Positions 19,882 to 24,065 of a stretch of DNA of 24,065 bases are shown in pieces. The DNA comes from a virus: the IMG/VR virus record IMGVR_UViG_3300021356_000164, positions 1 through 24,065 of that record. The stretch is one strand, 5' to 3'. Each line of letters starts with the position of its first letter. The first letter of the stretch is position 1. The translations under genes were made by a program, and so were the position numbers. The notes beneath the pieces were generated by a model that did not search any database, was not told the origin of the DNA, and saw only the letters and a list, made by a program, of their open reading frames with translations.

Positions 19882-20112
19882 ATGCAAAAGGTCTACAACT
19901 TACTGGCAGTCTTAGCGTTCGTGATGTCTGGAACGATGGCTGTTGGTGGCGTGTTGTTCTACACGCGCATTCCATCGCTAACCAAGCGATACATCAGCGA
20001 GTTGAAGCTGGAACTGACTGAAACGGTTTTGGAGCTTATTCCTAAGCCTGAGATTCCTGAAATGCCAAAGCTGCCTACTGAGACTGGACCGGCAATCAAG
20101 TCACCATTTTAG
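19882..20112 (+). CDS. 76-residue single-pass membrane protein
   Basis: The ATG at 19882 is preferred to a TTG at 19870, which lies in the terminator T-run. Residues about 4-27 (YNLLAVLAFVMSGTMAVGGV) form a membrane helix. A basic-then-acidic helix (SELKLELTETVLELI) and a proline-rich tail (KPEIPEMPKLPTETG) follow. Similar small anchored proteins with Pro-rich tails occur in cyanophages, without known function. A role in the inner membrane near the lysis genes is inferred. Its last 17 bases overlap the 3' end of the leftward gene at 20096. Confidence 0.65.
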   Translation: MQKVYNLLAVLAFVMSGTMAVGGVLFYTRIPSLTKRYISELKLELTETVLELIPKPEIPEMPKLPTETGPAIKSPF

Positions 20113-20413
20113 TGTTTGCGGTTGGATCATCGTCATGAGCCTCAGGTCCAAACCCTTCCGCCTTGATTTTTGCCATATCAAGTTCTGGCGCGGGTGTTTC
20201 TGGTTTCTGATCAAATGACGCTAGCCATGCACGCAACGCATCACCAGTTGGTGTGCCTTTTGGCCATTTGACGAATTTGAGGATAGCTTTTGGATCGGTA
20301 AATGGTCTGGCGGATTTGCCGCACAATACGGTGTAAACAACAGGCGGTCCTTCGCGTCTACGGTTACGTTCAATCCAAAGCTGACCTGCTGTAAACCGTT
20401 CGCCTGTTTTCAT
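20096..20413 (-). CDS. 105-residue leftward protein of unknown function
   Basis: The chosen start is the ATG at 20413 (leftward), which gives MKTGERFTAGQLWIERNRRR onward, a soluble protein with Trp and basic residues, then TDPKAILKFVKWPKGTPTG, and an acidic C-terminus (AHDDDPTANTKMVT). An upstream start at 20545 would add 44 Gly/Thr-rich residues, but that DNA is better explained by the rightward gene. The start lies in a CATG shared with the rightward gene at 20412. The 3' end overlaps the preceding gene tail to tail by 17 bases. Otherwise the 300 bases 20113-20411 would be empty. No family recognised. Confidence 0.6.
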   Translation of the reverse strand: MKTGERFTAGQLWIERNRRREGPPVVYTVLCGKSARPFTDPKAILKFVKWPKGTPTGDALRAWLASFDQKPETPAPELDMAKIKAEGFGPEAHDDDPTANTKMVT

Positions 20414-21089
20414 GCCAGAGATTCCAAAGATTGGGGTTGGAGCGGTAGGCGTGCCAAGTGTTGGCACTAGGCAAGTTATTCCACCGCCAAGATTGCCAGC
20501 TGAGCCACCTGTCACATTAATGCTGGGATTCCCTGTCGCTGACATGCCAGGAGGGGAAATTCCACATTATGAGCCGTTGGATTTTACGCCAGGGCAACAT
20601 ACGCACCAAACAGCAAAGCCACCAAGACCTGCGGATGAAGAAAAACCGGCTGGACGCTCAAACCAACCGGCATCTGTCCCCTCGCCAGCTGCGACGTTAC
20701 CAGCTGACCAACTCAAGCTAGACAAGGAATTACCTTGTCCACCTGCTGACGCAATTCCTTTAGGAGCAAAGAACAAATCTCAAACTGCTGTCATCATTGG
20801 ATATGAGATGGTTGATGGGACGTGTGAACCACAGCTCAAGCCATTGGACTTACCAGCGGTCATCGGCAATTATTTACCTGCTGCACCACTTGTCACAACG
20901 ACTGCGACTGTTGCTGCGGTGGCGACTACAGCAGCCATCTTCGCGAGACCTTTAGGGGACATCCTGCTCAAAGCAGTCAAACCCATCGTCAAAAAGACTA
21001 TTAAGAAGATCAAGGAGAAGCTGGGGAAAAAGGTTGCTGTTGAATCTGCTTGGGAGCGTCGGAGGTTTCAGCGGTCTTTACGGAAGTAG
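20412..21089 (+). CDS. proline-rich protein with C-terminal membrane segment and basic tail
   Basis: This encodes 225 residues from ATG 20412. The N-terminal ~45 residues are a Pro/Val/Gly-rich arm (KIGVGAVGVPSVG, then PPPRLPAEPPVTL). The middle is hydrophilic and proline-rich. Residues about 156-180 (PLVTTTATVAAVATTAAIF) form a membrane helix. The tail is very basic (VKPIVKKTIKKIKEKLGKK, then WERRRFQRSLRK). From memory, similar proteins with a PPxRLPAxPPVT arm and a VKP-KK tail occur in cyanophages. The topology suggests a bitopic membrane protein with one proline-rich domain and a basic tail. It is embedded in a leftward block; its 3' 80 bases overlap the gene at 21010. No clear Shine-Dalgarno sequence. 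Confidence 0.7.
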   Translation: MPEIPKIGVGAVGVPSVGTRQVIPPPRLPAEPPVTLMLGFPVADMPGGEIPHYEPLDFTPGQHTHQTAKPPRPADEEKPAGRSNQPASVPSPAATLPADQLKLDKELPCPPADAIPLGAKNKSQTAVIIGYEMVDGTCEPQLKPLDLPAVIGNYLPAAPLVTTTATVAAVATTAAIFARPLGDILLKAVKPIVKKTIKKIKEKLGKKVAVESAWERRRFQRSLRK

Positions 21090-21741
21090 GAATCGAGTGT
21101 GTATGGGGCGGAAGATTGCCTGGCGGGTTGCTCAGAACAACATCCGCACAGATGGCACTGTAGGGCGAGTCAGGATGGAAGTTCACACCCTTGCGCATCA
21201 ACTCCGAGCAATTTTTGAGCCGGGCGAGTTCGTAATTGAGCCTCTTATCAGCTAGCTGTTGTTCTAAAAGCGCCACTTGCTTTTCGGCCGCTCGATGGCA
21301 GCTCTTGATATGAGAGCGATCCAGCGGTATCGAAATCGTGGCAGTGATGCCGCCGTTAACCGAGTAGTTGCTTTTTTGCCCTGTCCGAATCGGACGATAA
21401 TAAAGGACATTGCCCGGATTATCGGGGACGCCATCTGGGATGGCATTGCCTTCCTCGTCAAACGCGCCAACCAAATCGAGAGTGTCATAAACAGGCTCTT
21501 TGTAGTAAGCCTCATAAGGTTTTGCCCAGCCAACAGTTGTGCTTAGAAAGGGGCTGATGGTCAGGCTTGTTCCTTGGCAGCTGAAGCCGTTGTATTGATA
21601 TACGAAAGACTTTGACGGAACAACTTGGACCGCCTGATTAGTCACTGAGCCAGAACTGTTCGCAACTGGAGCGGCAGTACCTGAGACCTGTGCTTGTGCT
21701 GGAGAGGCAAGCAGCAAAAGCGTTGCTATGACTCGCTTCAT
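21010..21741 (-). CDS. exported protein with four cysteines, cyanophage-type
   Basis: This 243-residue leftward protein begins with a signal peptide (MKRVIATLLLLASPAQA-Q). The mature part has four cysteines (in FSCQG, KSCHR, KNCSEL and AICADV) that could form two disulfides, and an Asp/Gly/Pro-rich segment (AFDEEGNAIPDGVPDNPGN) that may bind calcium. A helix (VALLEQQLADKRLNYELARL) and the motif GVNFHPDSPYSAICADV precede a low-complexity tail. From memory the overall pattern matches a cyanophage protein of unknown role. The start overlaps the upstream leftward stop (ATGA). The last 80 bases are antisense to the rightward gene. Likely acts in the periplasm or outside the cell. Confidence 0.7.
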   Translation of the reverse strand: MKRVIATLLLLASPAQAQVSGTAAPVANSSGSVTNQAVQVVPSKSFVYQYNGFSCQGTSLTISPFLSTTVGWAKPYEAYYKEPVYDTLDLVGAFDEEGNAIPDGVPDNPGNVLYYRPIRTGQKSNYSVNGGITATISIPLDRSHIKSCHRAAEKQVALLEQQLADKRLNYELARLKNCSELMRKGVNFHPDSPYSAICADVVLSNPPGNLPPHTHSIPTSVKTAETSDAPKQIQQQPFSPASP

Positions 21742-22187
21742 TGTGTAAACGTGCTGAGTGTCTCCGTAAGAGATTCGATCTCAGTAGTGCGGTTTATGGC
21801 AGTGTGATTTGTCAGACCTGGACCGCTCAAGGTTTCAGTGAATTGGAAAGACGCACCTTGTTCTACGAGTTTCCACTCTGGCTTGCTGGCTGGGTCAAGA
21901 CCTGTCCACGTGCTTGTGATGCCGTTAAGGCTATTAGTTGTAGTGGTTAGTTTGTTTGGAGCGATAACGCCACCAACGGGCGTAACGTTAGTGCCGCTAG
22001 CAGTGTATTCGTAGCCAGTCCGATAGTCATAGGAGTTGATGACCTCAGTTATTTTCTGCGTAGTTTTTGTAGTGGACTTAAGAGTGCCTTGTTGAAAGTT
22101 AGGCACAACTGGAATGGACTGTGCTTCTGGAGCGGCAAGAGCAATGACAGAAAGCACGCCCCATGTGATCCAAATTGCAGTCCACAT
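21738..22187 (-). CDS. exported beta-rich protein of unknown function
   Basis: This encodes 149 residues with an N-terminal hydrophobic signal (AIWITWGVLSVIALAAPEA); the putative cleavage is after A-P-E-A or nearby. The mature part is Thr/Ser/Asn-rich with short strands (KSTTKTTQKITEVINSYDYR, then YTASGTNVTPVGG) and no cysteine. It starts in a TAATG overlap with the gene at 22187-22681 and ends in an ATGA overlap with the next one, all leftward. No family name can be given. Its place between two other exported proteins suggests a common secreted or envelope complex. Confidence 0.65.
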   Translation of the reverse strand: MWTAIWITWGVLSVIALAAPEAQSIPVVPNFQQGTLKSTTKTTQKITEVINSYDYRTGYEYTASGTNVTPVGGVIAPNKLTTTTNSLNGITSTWTGLDPASKPEWKLVEQGASFQFTETLSGPGLTNHTAINRTTEIESLTETLSTFTQ

Positions 22188-22681
22188 TATTTAATCGTTA
22201 GCTCTTGGATGACTTGTCCGATTGCGGACGTGCCAGCGCCACCAGCAGTGATTGTAAGAGCGCCACCAGAATCAATAGTTCCACCGAGGCTGCCTGCAAC
22301 ACCTCCGCTAGTGGTAGTCACTGAGCCAAAAGCGGGCAAGGCCGGAACTACTCCTGAGGTGACTGTTGTTGAGAGGACGCTTGGGACGTCATCTCCTTCG
22401 ATGAATGATTCTGAATACGAAAAGCTGTCACCAGCAGTAGTGACGCTAAAAGCGCCAGGAGTGTAACCAAGAGCAGTGCCGGAAGTGTGTGACCCCAAAG
22501 AAGGCACAGTGTCCAAAGTGACGTTAGAGCCAGATACTGCCAACGAACTTGGAACGCGATTGGCAACTGATCCCGCTCCATCAACTGTCAGCTGAATGCT
22601 TGTTTGGACTCTAGAGGTAATGTCTGCCTGAGCAGGCAATCCCAAGAGTGTCACACCCAATGCCAGAAGTGTGCGCTTCAT
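22187..22681 (-). CDS. exported Ser/Thr/Gly-rich beta protein
   Basis: This encodes 164 residues with a good signal peptide (MKRTLLALGVTLLGLPAQA-D). The mature sequence is Ser, Thr, Gly and Val rich (TSIQLTVDGAGSVANR, then SVTTTSGGVAGSLGGTIDSG) with no cysteine. It reads as a beta-helix or beta-sandwich of short strands. It is coupled by ATGA to the membrane protein gene upstream and by TAATG to the next exported protein. From memory, similar proteins exist in cyanophages with unknown function. It may be a surface or periplasmic protein. Confidence 0.7.
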   Translation of the reverse strand: MKRTLLALGVTLLGLPAQADITSRVQTSIQLTVDGAGSVANRVPSSLAVSGSNVTLDTVPSLGSHTSGTALGYTPGAFSVTTAGDSFSYSESFIEGDDVPSVLSTTVTSGVVPALPAFGSVTTTSGGVAGSLGGTIDSGGALTITAGGAGTSAIGQVIQELTIK

Positions 22682-22941
22682 TTGATGCCAGCCTTGGAAT
22701 CTTTGCTATCTACGATAGTCGGCTTTTTATTGGCATTGCCATTGCTCTTACGCTCGATGCCAAATGACGCCATGGCACCTGTAAGTAGCGAAGCCACAAA
22801 AGTGTTGTCCATCTTCATCTGAGGGAAAAAGCCCAAATATGAGACGGTAAGCAGTGTGGCGCTCCAAACCAAGACAGCGCATTTAACGACATCAGCAACG
22901 CTGACGCCTTCTTTTTCGTTGTTGTCCATTTGTTCTGCCAT
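22678..22941 (-). CDS. 87-residue two-helix membrane protein, possible holin
   Basis: After a charged N-terminus (MAEQMDNNEKEG), residues about 18-40 (VVKCAVLVWSATLLTVSYLG) and about 46-62 (NTFVASLLTGAMASFGI) form two hydrophobic segments, followed by a basic hydrophilic tail. Size, two helices and charged tail fit a class II holin-like protein, though no family motif is decisive. It is the first gene of the leftward run, and its stop overlaps the start of the exported protein that follows. No Shine-Dalgarno sequence is visible before ATG 22941. Only 26 bases separate it from the divergent gene at 22968. Confidence 0.6.
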   Translation of the reverse strand: MAEQMDNNEKEGVSVADVVKCAVLVWSATLLTVSYLGFFPQMKMDNTFVASLLTGAMASFGIERKSNGNANKKPTIVDSKDSKAGIK

Positions 22942-22967
22942 GATGAAGCGAGTGATTGGAGCGGTTC

Positions 22968-23219
22968 ATGGTCGAAGTTTGGGCCGCTGTTGCTGGAGCG
23001 TCAATAACCACTGCTGCATTGGGCGTTTCTGGCATTAACCGTCAGACGCGCCAAGGGCAGGACTCGTTGATTCGTTTGACGACTGCAGTGGACAACCTGT
23101 CTGGCAGGCTTGATATTTTGCACCAGGACATCAAAAGCAAAGATGTTGAGGTGTTTGGGAGATTGAGCGAATTGGAGCGTTCGGTGGCACGTCTGGAAGG
23201 TCACACTGATAGGCACTAA
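22968..23219 (+). CDS. 83-residue membrane-anchored helical protein
   Basis: The ATG at 22968 is chosen because GGAG (22958-22961) lies six bases upstream; a TTG at 22956 is less likely. The N-terminus is apolar (VWAAVAGASITTAALGVSGI), followed by a coiled-coil-like stretch with heptad leucines (SLIRLTTAVDNLSGRLDILH, then LSELERSVARLEGH). A single N-terminal membrane helix plus a periplasmic or cytoplasmic coiled coil is the layout of i-spanins and of small cyanophage proteins near the lysis genes. The function is inferred only from layout. Confidence 0.65.
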   Translation: MVEVWAAVAGASITTAALGVSGINRQTRQGQDSLIRLTTAVDNLSGRLDILHQDIKSKDVEVFGRLSELERSVARLEGHTDRH

Positions 23220-23246: not shown

Positions 23247-23420
23247 ATGGTTCTGATCATCAAGCCAATCCTGATGGCATTTCTGAAGTCAGATGCTGTC
23301 AAGCGTCTGGTTCTAGACCTATTGCGTGCTTATGCGAAAACGACGGATAACACCGTCGATGATCAGGTTTGCGATTTTGTGAGCAAAAACCTTTTCCCAG
23401 GCACTCGTGTTGAGAAGTGA
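23247..23420 (+). CDS. 57-residue amphipathic helical protein
   Basis: The ATG at 23247 has AAGG seven bases upstream; the frame ends at TGA 23418-23420. The sequence (IIKPILMAFLKSDAVKRLVL, then DLLRAYAKTTDNTVDD) is an amphipathic helix with a short C-terminal second part (VCDFVSKNLFPG). It does not look like a full membrane span. From memory, short proteins like this occur in cyanophages. Its stop overlaps the next start (GTGA), so it belongs to the same unit as the peptidase. Role unknown. Confidence 0.6.
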   Translation: MVLIIKPILMAFLKSDAVKRLVLDLLRAYAKTTDNTVDDQVCDFVSKNLFPGTRVEK

Positions 23421-23563
23421 AGCCATCGGTGCTGTTTGCAGCTGGTTGGTTCGTCGCAGGAGGCGCTGTCATGCTTTTGCTTTACAGCTCTGCTTTAATC
23501 TTCATCGGCGGATACAGCGTTGGCGAAAGCAGCTGCCGACCGGCATTATCAGACCGATACTGA
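23417..23563 (+). CDS. 48-residue membrane protein upstream of the peptidase
   Basis: The GTG at 23417 overlaps the previous stop (GTGA), and the frame ends at TGA 23561-23563. Nearly the whole protein is hydrophobic (VLFAAGWFVAGGAVMLLLYS, then ALIFIGGYSVG) with a Cys-Arg-containing end. It could be one long or two short membrane helices. Its position directly before a peptidase suggests a holin or holin partner. It is very short, so it is less certain than its neighbours. Confidence 0.5.
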   Translation: MKPSVLFAAGWFVAGGAVMLLLYSSALIFIGGYSVGESSCRPALSDRY

Positions 23564-23568
23564 TTATC

Positions 23569-24065
23569 TTGGCAGTGCCGCTCAGCTTATTGCCATTTTT
23601 CCAGTTTTTCCGTGGTACGCCCCATCAGTTGGCTGCGATTAAGGAGCTTGAGGAGTCAGTGTCAAAGGAGTTATTGGAGGAAGACTCAGACTGGTTTCAG
23701 TCTTGGAAGGAAAGCGGATATGACCAGCAGATCTACATGCCTTATTTCAAGCAGCTCGACAACAAGACTGGAACGGGATACCGCGAGTGTTTCAGCTCAG
23801 CAGCTGCAATGGTGGCAGCGTTTTACAAGAAGGTTCAGACAGATGATGAGTACAACAAAGTCCGCGCCAAATTTGGAGACACGACATCAGTAGAGGCTCA
23901 GCTGCAAGCGCTACGAAGCCTTGGGTTGCAGGCTGAATTTCGTCAAGACGGTGATGCAGACATGTTGGAGCTGGAGATTGAGAACGGCAGGCCTGTAATG
24001 GTTGGCTGGTTGCATCACGGAAATATGCTTCGCGGCGAACCACCGATGTGCAAGGGACCGGGTTG
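23569..24065 (+). CDS. C39-like cysteine peptidase, N-terminal membrane anchor, 3'-truncated
   Basis: The frame stays open to the window end. The start is uncertain: no ATG is available near the N-terminus. TTG 23569 or GTG 23575 are candidates, but in-frame codons further upstream (RPILIILAVPLSLLPFFQFF) complete a membrane helix, so the true start may be further upstream, overlapping the 48-residue gene. After an acidic helix, the motif TGYRECFSSAAAMVAAFY (Cys codon 23788) is the nucleophile region of C39/papain-like peptidases. DTTSVEAQLQALRSLGLQAEF and GRPVMVGWLHHGN are also typical. The catalytic His is probably in a G-H-W-like motif just beyond the end, since the window stops at KGPG. 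From memory, cyanophages carry proteins of this kind, probably envelope peptidases or lysins. Confidence 0.8.
   Translation, partial: MAVPLSLLPFFQFFRGTPHQLAAIKELEESVSKELLEEDSDWFQSWKESGYDQQIYMPYFKQLDNKTGTGYRECFSSAAAMVAAFYKKVQTDDEYNKVRAKFGDTTSVEAQLQALRSLGLQAEFRQDGDADMLELEIENGRPVMVGWLHHGNMLRGEPPMCKGPG

Follow-up and report, generated by a model that had tools for sequence, protein, structure and literature searches.

Predicted exported and membrane proteins form a gene module shared by unrelated cyanophages, with a possible role in envelope disruption at lysis

In this study, we analysed a complete viral record of 24,065 bases (IMG/VR record IMGVR_UViG_3300021356_000164, here called the window), which carries a cassette of four minus-strand genes at 21010-22941 for one two-helix membrane protein, DUF6450, and three predicted Sec-exported proteins. 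This arrangement is far from what chance would give, as these genes occur in the same order in hundreds of cyanophage records and in about 80 related contigs, with protein identities of 71-86% in the latter. The cassette appears to be the exported half of a module whose facing half consists of a GC234-like protein and a phrog_568 membrane protein. We tentatively propose that this is a late, horizontally shared envelope module that acts in envelope disruption at lysis. Action on the host envelope rather than in the particle is suggested because the module is apparently late, exported, restricted to cyanophages, and able to move between unrelated particle types.

The original prediction, made from the letters of the window, had described four leftward genes with ATGA, TAATG, and ATGA overlaps, encoding a two-helix membrane protein and three signal-peptide proteins. 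The open reading frame (ORF) coordinates agree exactly with this, with the overlaps in that order from DUF6450 onward, and the protein types were confirmed by hydrophobic segments and a rule-based signal-peptide check. The interval assigned to the cassette, 20096-22941, was about 0.9 kb too long, as the cassette ends at 21010, and a rightward GC234-like gene (20412-21089) that converges on the cassette and belongs to the module had been overlooked. In the GenBank entries for Syn1 and S-SM1, these families are tagged T4-GC 237, 236, 235, 234, and 414, and GC218 is DUF6450. The window genes were linked to the members in Syn1, S-SM1, and S-TIM5 by profiles and tblastn, and DUF6450 via PF20048. 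By PHROG and Pfam, the module genes fall in large cyanophage families without assigned function, and a megablast of the whole window against phage records gave zero matches. The window runs from lambda-like tail genes (tail assembly chaperone, tail tip J) through two large fibre genes, small genes, and the inverted cassette to the start of an endolysin gene. The features are listed in Table 1.

A tblastn search with GC235 matched 437 phage records, all of them cyanophages or uncultured/marine. The gene arrangement was surveyed in 311 loci from IMG/VR and GenBank, in which some contigs are counted in more than one scan and the loci are not phylogenetically independent. The order GC237-GC236-GC235, with GC234 converging on GC235, held in 302 of 303 loci, among them the window. 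The coding ends of GC235 and GC234 overlapped in 95%, by a median of 98 nucleotides (nt), and GC236 and GC237 were co-oriented with GC235 in every case. Gene order and direction in other cyanophages, put forward as a check by the original prediction, are conserved by this count, and relatives showed neither scattered genes nor a lack of predicted exported products. The position of DUF6450 varies, lying upstream of GC237 in window-type viruses and on the far side, behind phrog_568, in cyanomyoviruses. Profiles from this analysis detected the module in the siphovirus P-HS2 and, in more diverged form, in the T7-like phages P-SSP7, P-SCSP1u, and S-SBP1. In P-SSP7, fibre gene 17 and terminase gene 19 flank the module, which has the order 042 (GC234-like by features only), 043 (DUF6450), 044 (GC236-like), and 045 (GC235-like). 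Comparison with GC234 by hhalign gave 19% for P-SSP7_042 and 34% for the convergent gene of P-SCSP1u, values that are suggestive only.

Presence and absence were then compared across 18 complete phage records. GC235 and DUF6450 were both present in seven of them (Syn9, Syn1, S-TIM5, P-SSP7, P-SCSP1u, P-HS2, and S-SBP1) and both absent from ten (S-PM2, S-CBS4, P60, S-CRM01, S-CREM1, S-SZBM1, Syn5, P-SS2, the SAR11 phage HTVC008M, which is a kyanovirus, and the Microcystis phage Ma-LMM01). S-CREM2 was without GC235 and GC236, and its DUF6450 match was sub-threshold (E 1e-3). GC236 showed the same split over the 18 phages, except that the P-SCSP1u copy was too diverged for the profile. The chance of a perfect 7/11 split is p ~3e-5 with relatedness ignored. 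In S-TIM5, DUF6450 co-occurs though it lies far off in the genome. These results indicate that DUF6450, GC235, and GC236 are inherited almost as a block. All five tested estuarine or freshwater Synechococcus phages (S-CBS4, S-CRM01, S-CREM1, S-SZBM1, and S-CREM2) were without GC235, and this absence, seen in few phages, hints at a host-envelope target. Among 84,980 genomes, no cellular homologues were found besides eight matches; all eight look like cyanophage contigs or contamination, and a chromosomal origin was rejected on this ground. Module-bearing contigs assigned to Nonlabens, Prochlorococcus, Formosa, Euryarchaeota, and other groups look like binned or contaminating cyanophage genomes (e.g., L314 and L316).

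GC235, GC236, and GC237 begin with a Lys/Arg n-region or a short polar start and continue with a hydrophobic stretch and then a site of the A-x-A type. The signal peptides, assigned by rule, are predicted at residues ~1-19 of GC237, ~1-24 of GC236, and ~1-18 of GC235 in the window. The Sec type I pattern holds over 178 GC237 and 201 GC236 variants; the GC235 percentages in cyanomyoviruses are lower bounds, as automatic start choice clipped many copies. A lipobox was found in 0/178 GC237, 1.5% of GC236, and <1% of GC235 variants, and in none of the window proteins. GC236 is a paralogue of GC237 (hhalign 92.7%, E 4e-7), and no homology was found between GC235 and GC236. Cysteines 55, 148, 178, and 198 of GC235 were invariant in 57/57 sequences, and mature GC236 and GC237 have essentially no cysteines.

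The AlphaFold2 model of GC236 (predicted local distance difference test, pLDDT, 85.6; predicted template modelling score, pTM, 0.44) shows an elongated beta protein containing a pair of ~24-residue strands. That of GC235 is poor (pLDDT 63.5), with a beta region followed by a 42-residue helix. Foldseek gave no match in the PDB at E <= 0.001 for GC235 or GC236, and the significant matches of GC236 in BFVD were cyanophage or unnamed viral proteins only. PDB sequence searches with the GC234-237 profiles and the P-SCSP1u members gave nothing usable. The two very long strands of the GC236 model are like those of the anthrax PA channel, lysenin, and the Andhra/phi29 tail. However, against such long-hairpin pore and tail proteins the best PDB E was 4.4e-3, the template modelling score (TM-score) was at most 0.25, and the strands have no hydrophobic face, so that this is a resemblance only; a beta-pore (aerolysin-like) identity of GC236 was rejected on the same values.

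DUF6450 of the window has hydrophobic segments at residues 18-34 and 46-62 and a predicted N-in/C-in topology. Exactly two hydrophobic segments were found in 157/170 variants, and family members range from 58 to 105 amino acids (aa). Size and predicted topology are holin-like, and a small protein with transmembrane (TM) helices and, in cyanomyoviruses, a late-promoter core upstream would fit a candidate holin. The cyanomyovirus late promoter is NATAAATA (PMC2984593). We scanned distinct cyanomyovirus sequences for its TAAATA core within 120 bases upstream, against shuffled controls. The core was found upstream of GC237 in 74/80 variants, at a fixed 31 bp from the ATG (shuffled mean 12), and upstream of DUF6450 in 93/103 variants, at a fixed 27 bp from the ATG (shuffled mean 14). 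It was unenriched at such positions upstream of phrog_568, GC234, and GC235, and a few GC236 starts have it 9 bp upstream. These results suggest that the cyanomyovirus module probably consists of two convergent late operons.

The late motif is not used in window-type viruses, as would be expected of phages without the T4 late system, and late timing is inferred for the cyanomyoviruses, not for the window's own virus. Sigma-70 promoters and terminators in the window showed no excess over shuffled sequence. The starts of DUF6450 and the neighbouring gene cc87 are divergent and 14 bp apart (22942-22955). With so short a gap, each promoter must lie inside the neighbour gene, or else antisense late transcripts cross the cassette. 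In relatives without cc87, a conserved dyad GTTAC-N3-GTAAC followed by GGTAGC is located ~25-30 bp upstream of the DUF6450 start; 16 loci carry a motif of this kind, each a single time, and the window has none.

In the facing half, the GC234-like gene overlaps the GC235 gene tail to tail by 80 nt at the 3' ends. Its product has a Pro-rich N-part, a single hydrophobic segment at residues 160-178, and a strongly basic C-tail (17 K/R vs 4 D/E). The phrog_568 protein is short; a single TM helix lies at its N-terminus (residues 11-29 when the ORF is started at TTG), and its C-part is Pro-rich. It has no Pfam match, and no support was found for the name 'plasmid stability'. The minus-strand ORF at 20096-20545 is separate from the cassette and non-exported. 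Its true start is probably Met45 (20413), as the start of the phrog_37139 profile maps to about this residue. It stands head to head with GC234, both ATGs sharing CATG, and is full length in part of the related contigs; elsewhere, only the GC234-overlapping stretch remains.

Co-inheritance, predicted export, and conserved order and direction support a single envelope or periplasmic system, as the original prediction had suggested. Of the three roles it had offered, lysis fits best by late promoters and location, virion decoration is disfavoured by the Sec signal peptides, and superinfection exclusion is mildly disfavoured by the late timing; none is proven. We favour lysis because of the late timing, the holin-like member, the endolysin and TM/coiled-coil genes next to the module in the window, its place in the P-SSP7 genome, and the lack of a recognised spanin in module-bearing phages. 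At the end of infection, DUF6450 and the single-TM proteins would act in the inner membrane, and GC235-237 would form an assembly in the periplasm or the outer membrane. The module proteins may jointly breach or destabilise the envelope, and the endolysin-treated cell would burst. GC235-237 would then be a non-lipoprotein stand-in for the spanins of other phages.

T7 keeps its holin and spanins between the fibre and terminase genes. The P-SSP7 module fills the same interval as this lysis region (17.5 holin, 18.5/18.7 spanins, genes 17-19) and likewise combines exported proteins with a small holin-like protein of the membrane. However, no sequence similarity to T7 lysis proteins was found, there is no lipoprotein, and the exported proteins are beta-rich rather than an i-/o-spanin pair. 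The module further resembles spanins (Kongari et al. 2018, PMC6139136) in that its proteins would lie on both sides of the periplasm, that the short phrog_568 protein, with its single TM helix, would have a type II topology, and that cc87 combines a TM helix with a coiled coil. In contrast to spanins, the exported members have no lipobox and are soluble or beta-rich. In both phrog_568 and cc87, the N-terminal helix leads into a hydrophilic part, but there is no o-spanin partner gene. The spanin survey lists Syn1, Syn9, S-SM1, P-HM1/2, and P-SSP7 as having no recognisable spanin (PMC6139136 Table 10) and foresees non-lipoprotein substitutes (PMC6139136). The module is also common to unrelated virion types and was found on no bacterial chromosome, which we count for lysis. 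It is possible, and we say so with more reserve, that marine cyanophages of at least three unrelated particle types share a horizontally exchanged late module whose Sec-exported beta-rich proteins and small membrane proteins open the diderm cyanobacterial envelope without lipoprotein spanins. Many cyanophages of Prochlorococcus and Synechococcus have no recognisable spanin, which raises the question of how they cross the outer membrane on release (PMC6139136); the module, present in hundreds of them, provides a short, testable gene list for it.

Several observations weigh against a role in lysis. The module proteins showed no sequence or fold likeness to any experimentally tested lysis protein, GC234 has no signal peptide, and in cyanomyoviruses the module adjoins hsp20/regA or psbA, not an endolysin gene. 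The module-less phages S-PM2, P60, Syn5, P-SS2, and S-CBS4 are also listed as spanin-less (PMC6139136), yet they lyse their hosts, and therefore the module is not universally needed. The module might instead serve superinfection exclusion or envelope remodelling, with exported proteins coating or plugging the outer membrane or periplasm to block adsorption or injection, and with DUF6450 and the other membrane proteins anchoring the complex. Exported and membrane proteins common to competing, unrelated phages of the same hosts agree with this, as does the fact that, in window-type and T7-like phages, tail-fibre genes lie nearby. The absence of the module as a block from the SAR11 kyanovirus as well as the five estuarine or freshwater Synechococcus phages suits a host-envelope target. 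However, T4 imm and sp act early, and the cyanomyovirus late promoters come late for exclusion. Three exported and three membrane proteins are also many compared with known exclusion systems, and we regard this role as unlikely.

It is improbable that GC235-237 join or decorate the particle, for example by being picked up at release. Late expression, as indicated by the cyanomyovirus promoter cores, would allow it, and some Foldseek neighbours of GC236 are long-hairpin phage tail proteins, although these matches are not significant (Andhra upper tail, E 4.4e-3; phi29). However, Sec signal peptides would remove the proteins from the cytoplasm, the site of particle assembly, and the module is common to myo-, sipho-, and T7-like particles without a shared tail. 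In the Syn9 record, other non-T4 proteins bear the label 'structural protein', but gp161-gp167 have no such label, and no module protein is in the PDB, though the P-SCSP1u particle has been solved. The printed virion proteomes of S-CREM2 and S-SZBM1 are uninformative, as both phages are without GC235/GC236. Cyanobacterial Sec also serves the thylakoid lumen, and a periplasmic or lumenal function could support the late-infected cell (nutrient uptake, photosystem protection) rather than lysis. The module adjoins psbA/psbD or petE in some cyanomyoviruses, as such a function would suggest. We nevertheless consider it very improbable: the genome search gave no cellular homologue except on apparent phage contigs, auxiliary metabolic genes (AMGs) such as psbA are host-derived whereas the module genes are not, and the AMGs of P-HM2 are in the middle, not the late, expression class (PMC5082946).

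A cyanomyovirus cluster of 'five hypothetical proteins + plasmid stability protein' (T4-GC 218/219/234/235/237) was described by Sullivan et al. 2010 (PMC3037559); of 16 cyanomyoviruses, every one except a single phage had it. Its function was unassigned in 2010, and the authors speculated that the genes share a function and are mobile via the plasmid stability protein (PMC3037559). The original prediction of an 'undescribed system' was therefore mistaken as to the cluster, already reported in cyanomyoviruses, but not as to its function. The window has the same families, with GC237-GC236-GC235 convergent with GC234, and the same phrog_568 companion. It differs in that DUF6450 heads the exported operon, not the facing operon as in cyanomyoviruses. 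It also has no GC219 counterpart between GC234 and phrog_568, where no rightward ORF of such size fits 20113-20411, and its tail genes are lambda-like, not T4-like. We found no earlier description of the module in siphovirus-like or T7-like cyanophages, of its nearly all-or-none inheritance, of predicted export for three of its members, of GC236 and GC237 as paralogues, or of the late-promoter pattern. These findings correct annotations in which the genes are read as 'plasmid stability / mobile cassette'.

Table 1. Genes of the module and its neighbours in the window.
Feature	Coordinates	Strand	Evidence
DUF6450 / phrog_21865 (T4-GC 218-like), 87 aa	22678..22941	-	PF20048 E 3.5e-15; phrog_21865 E 4.4e-22
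GC237-like beta-rich protein, predicted exported, phrog_564, 164 aa	22187..22681	-	phrog_564 E 2.2e-40
GC236-like protein, predicted exported, DUF6322 / phrog_650, 149 aa	21738..22187	-	PF19847 E 6.9e-34
GC235-like protein, predicted exported, phrog_848, 243 aa	21010..21741	-	phrog_848 E 6.4e-82
GC234-like protein, phrog_570, 225 aa	20412..21089	+	phrog_570 E 7.5e-41
'Plasmid stability' family phrog_568 (T4-GC 414-like)	19882..20112	+	phrog_568 E 2.2e-10
Accessory non-exported ORF, phrog_37139, 105 aa	20096..20413	-	phrog_37139 E 1.5e-16
cc87, phrog_26178	22956..23219	+	N-terminal hydrophobic helix + coiled coil
p2738, phrog_2738, conserved, 57 aa	23247..23420	+	phrog_2738 E 7e-26
Endolysin-like protein, cut by record end	23407..24063	+	phrog_10051 endolysin E 3.8e-43; Peptidase_C70 E 7e-4
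p417, phrog_417, exported, 130 aa	19414-19806	+	beside tail-fibre genes

Among the neighbours, cc87 adjoins the module in ~50 related contigs. Hidden Markov model (HMM) matches of p2738 were found in P-SCSP1u, S-SBP1, P-SSP7, and Syn5, and it adjoins the module in T7-like cyanophages. The module adjoins the endolysin gene in the window and in ~65 related contigs; the endolysin-like protein has an N-terminal hydrophobic segment and a papain-like C70/C39 domain. A relative of this endolysin is present in P-SS2 (ACT65660, L089:37302-38528). The virion proteome of S-SZBM1 contains a relative of p417, SSZBM1_90 'DUF680' (PMC9146016 Table 1). The C-terminus of p417, ...KIGAKYNF, is an outer-membrane-barrel-like end.

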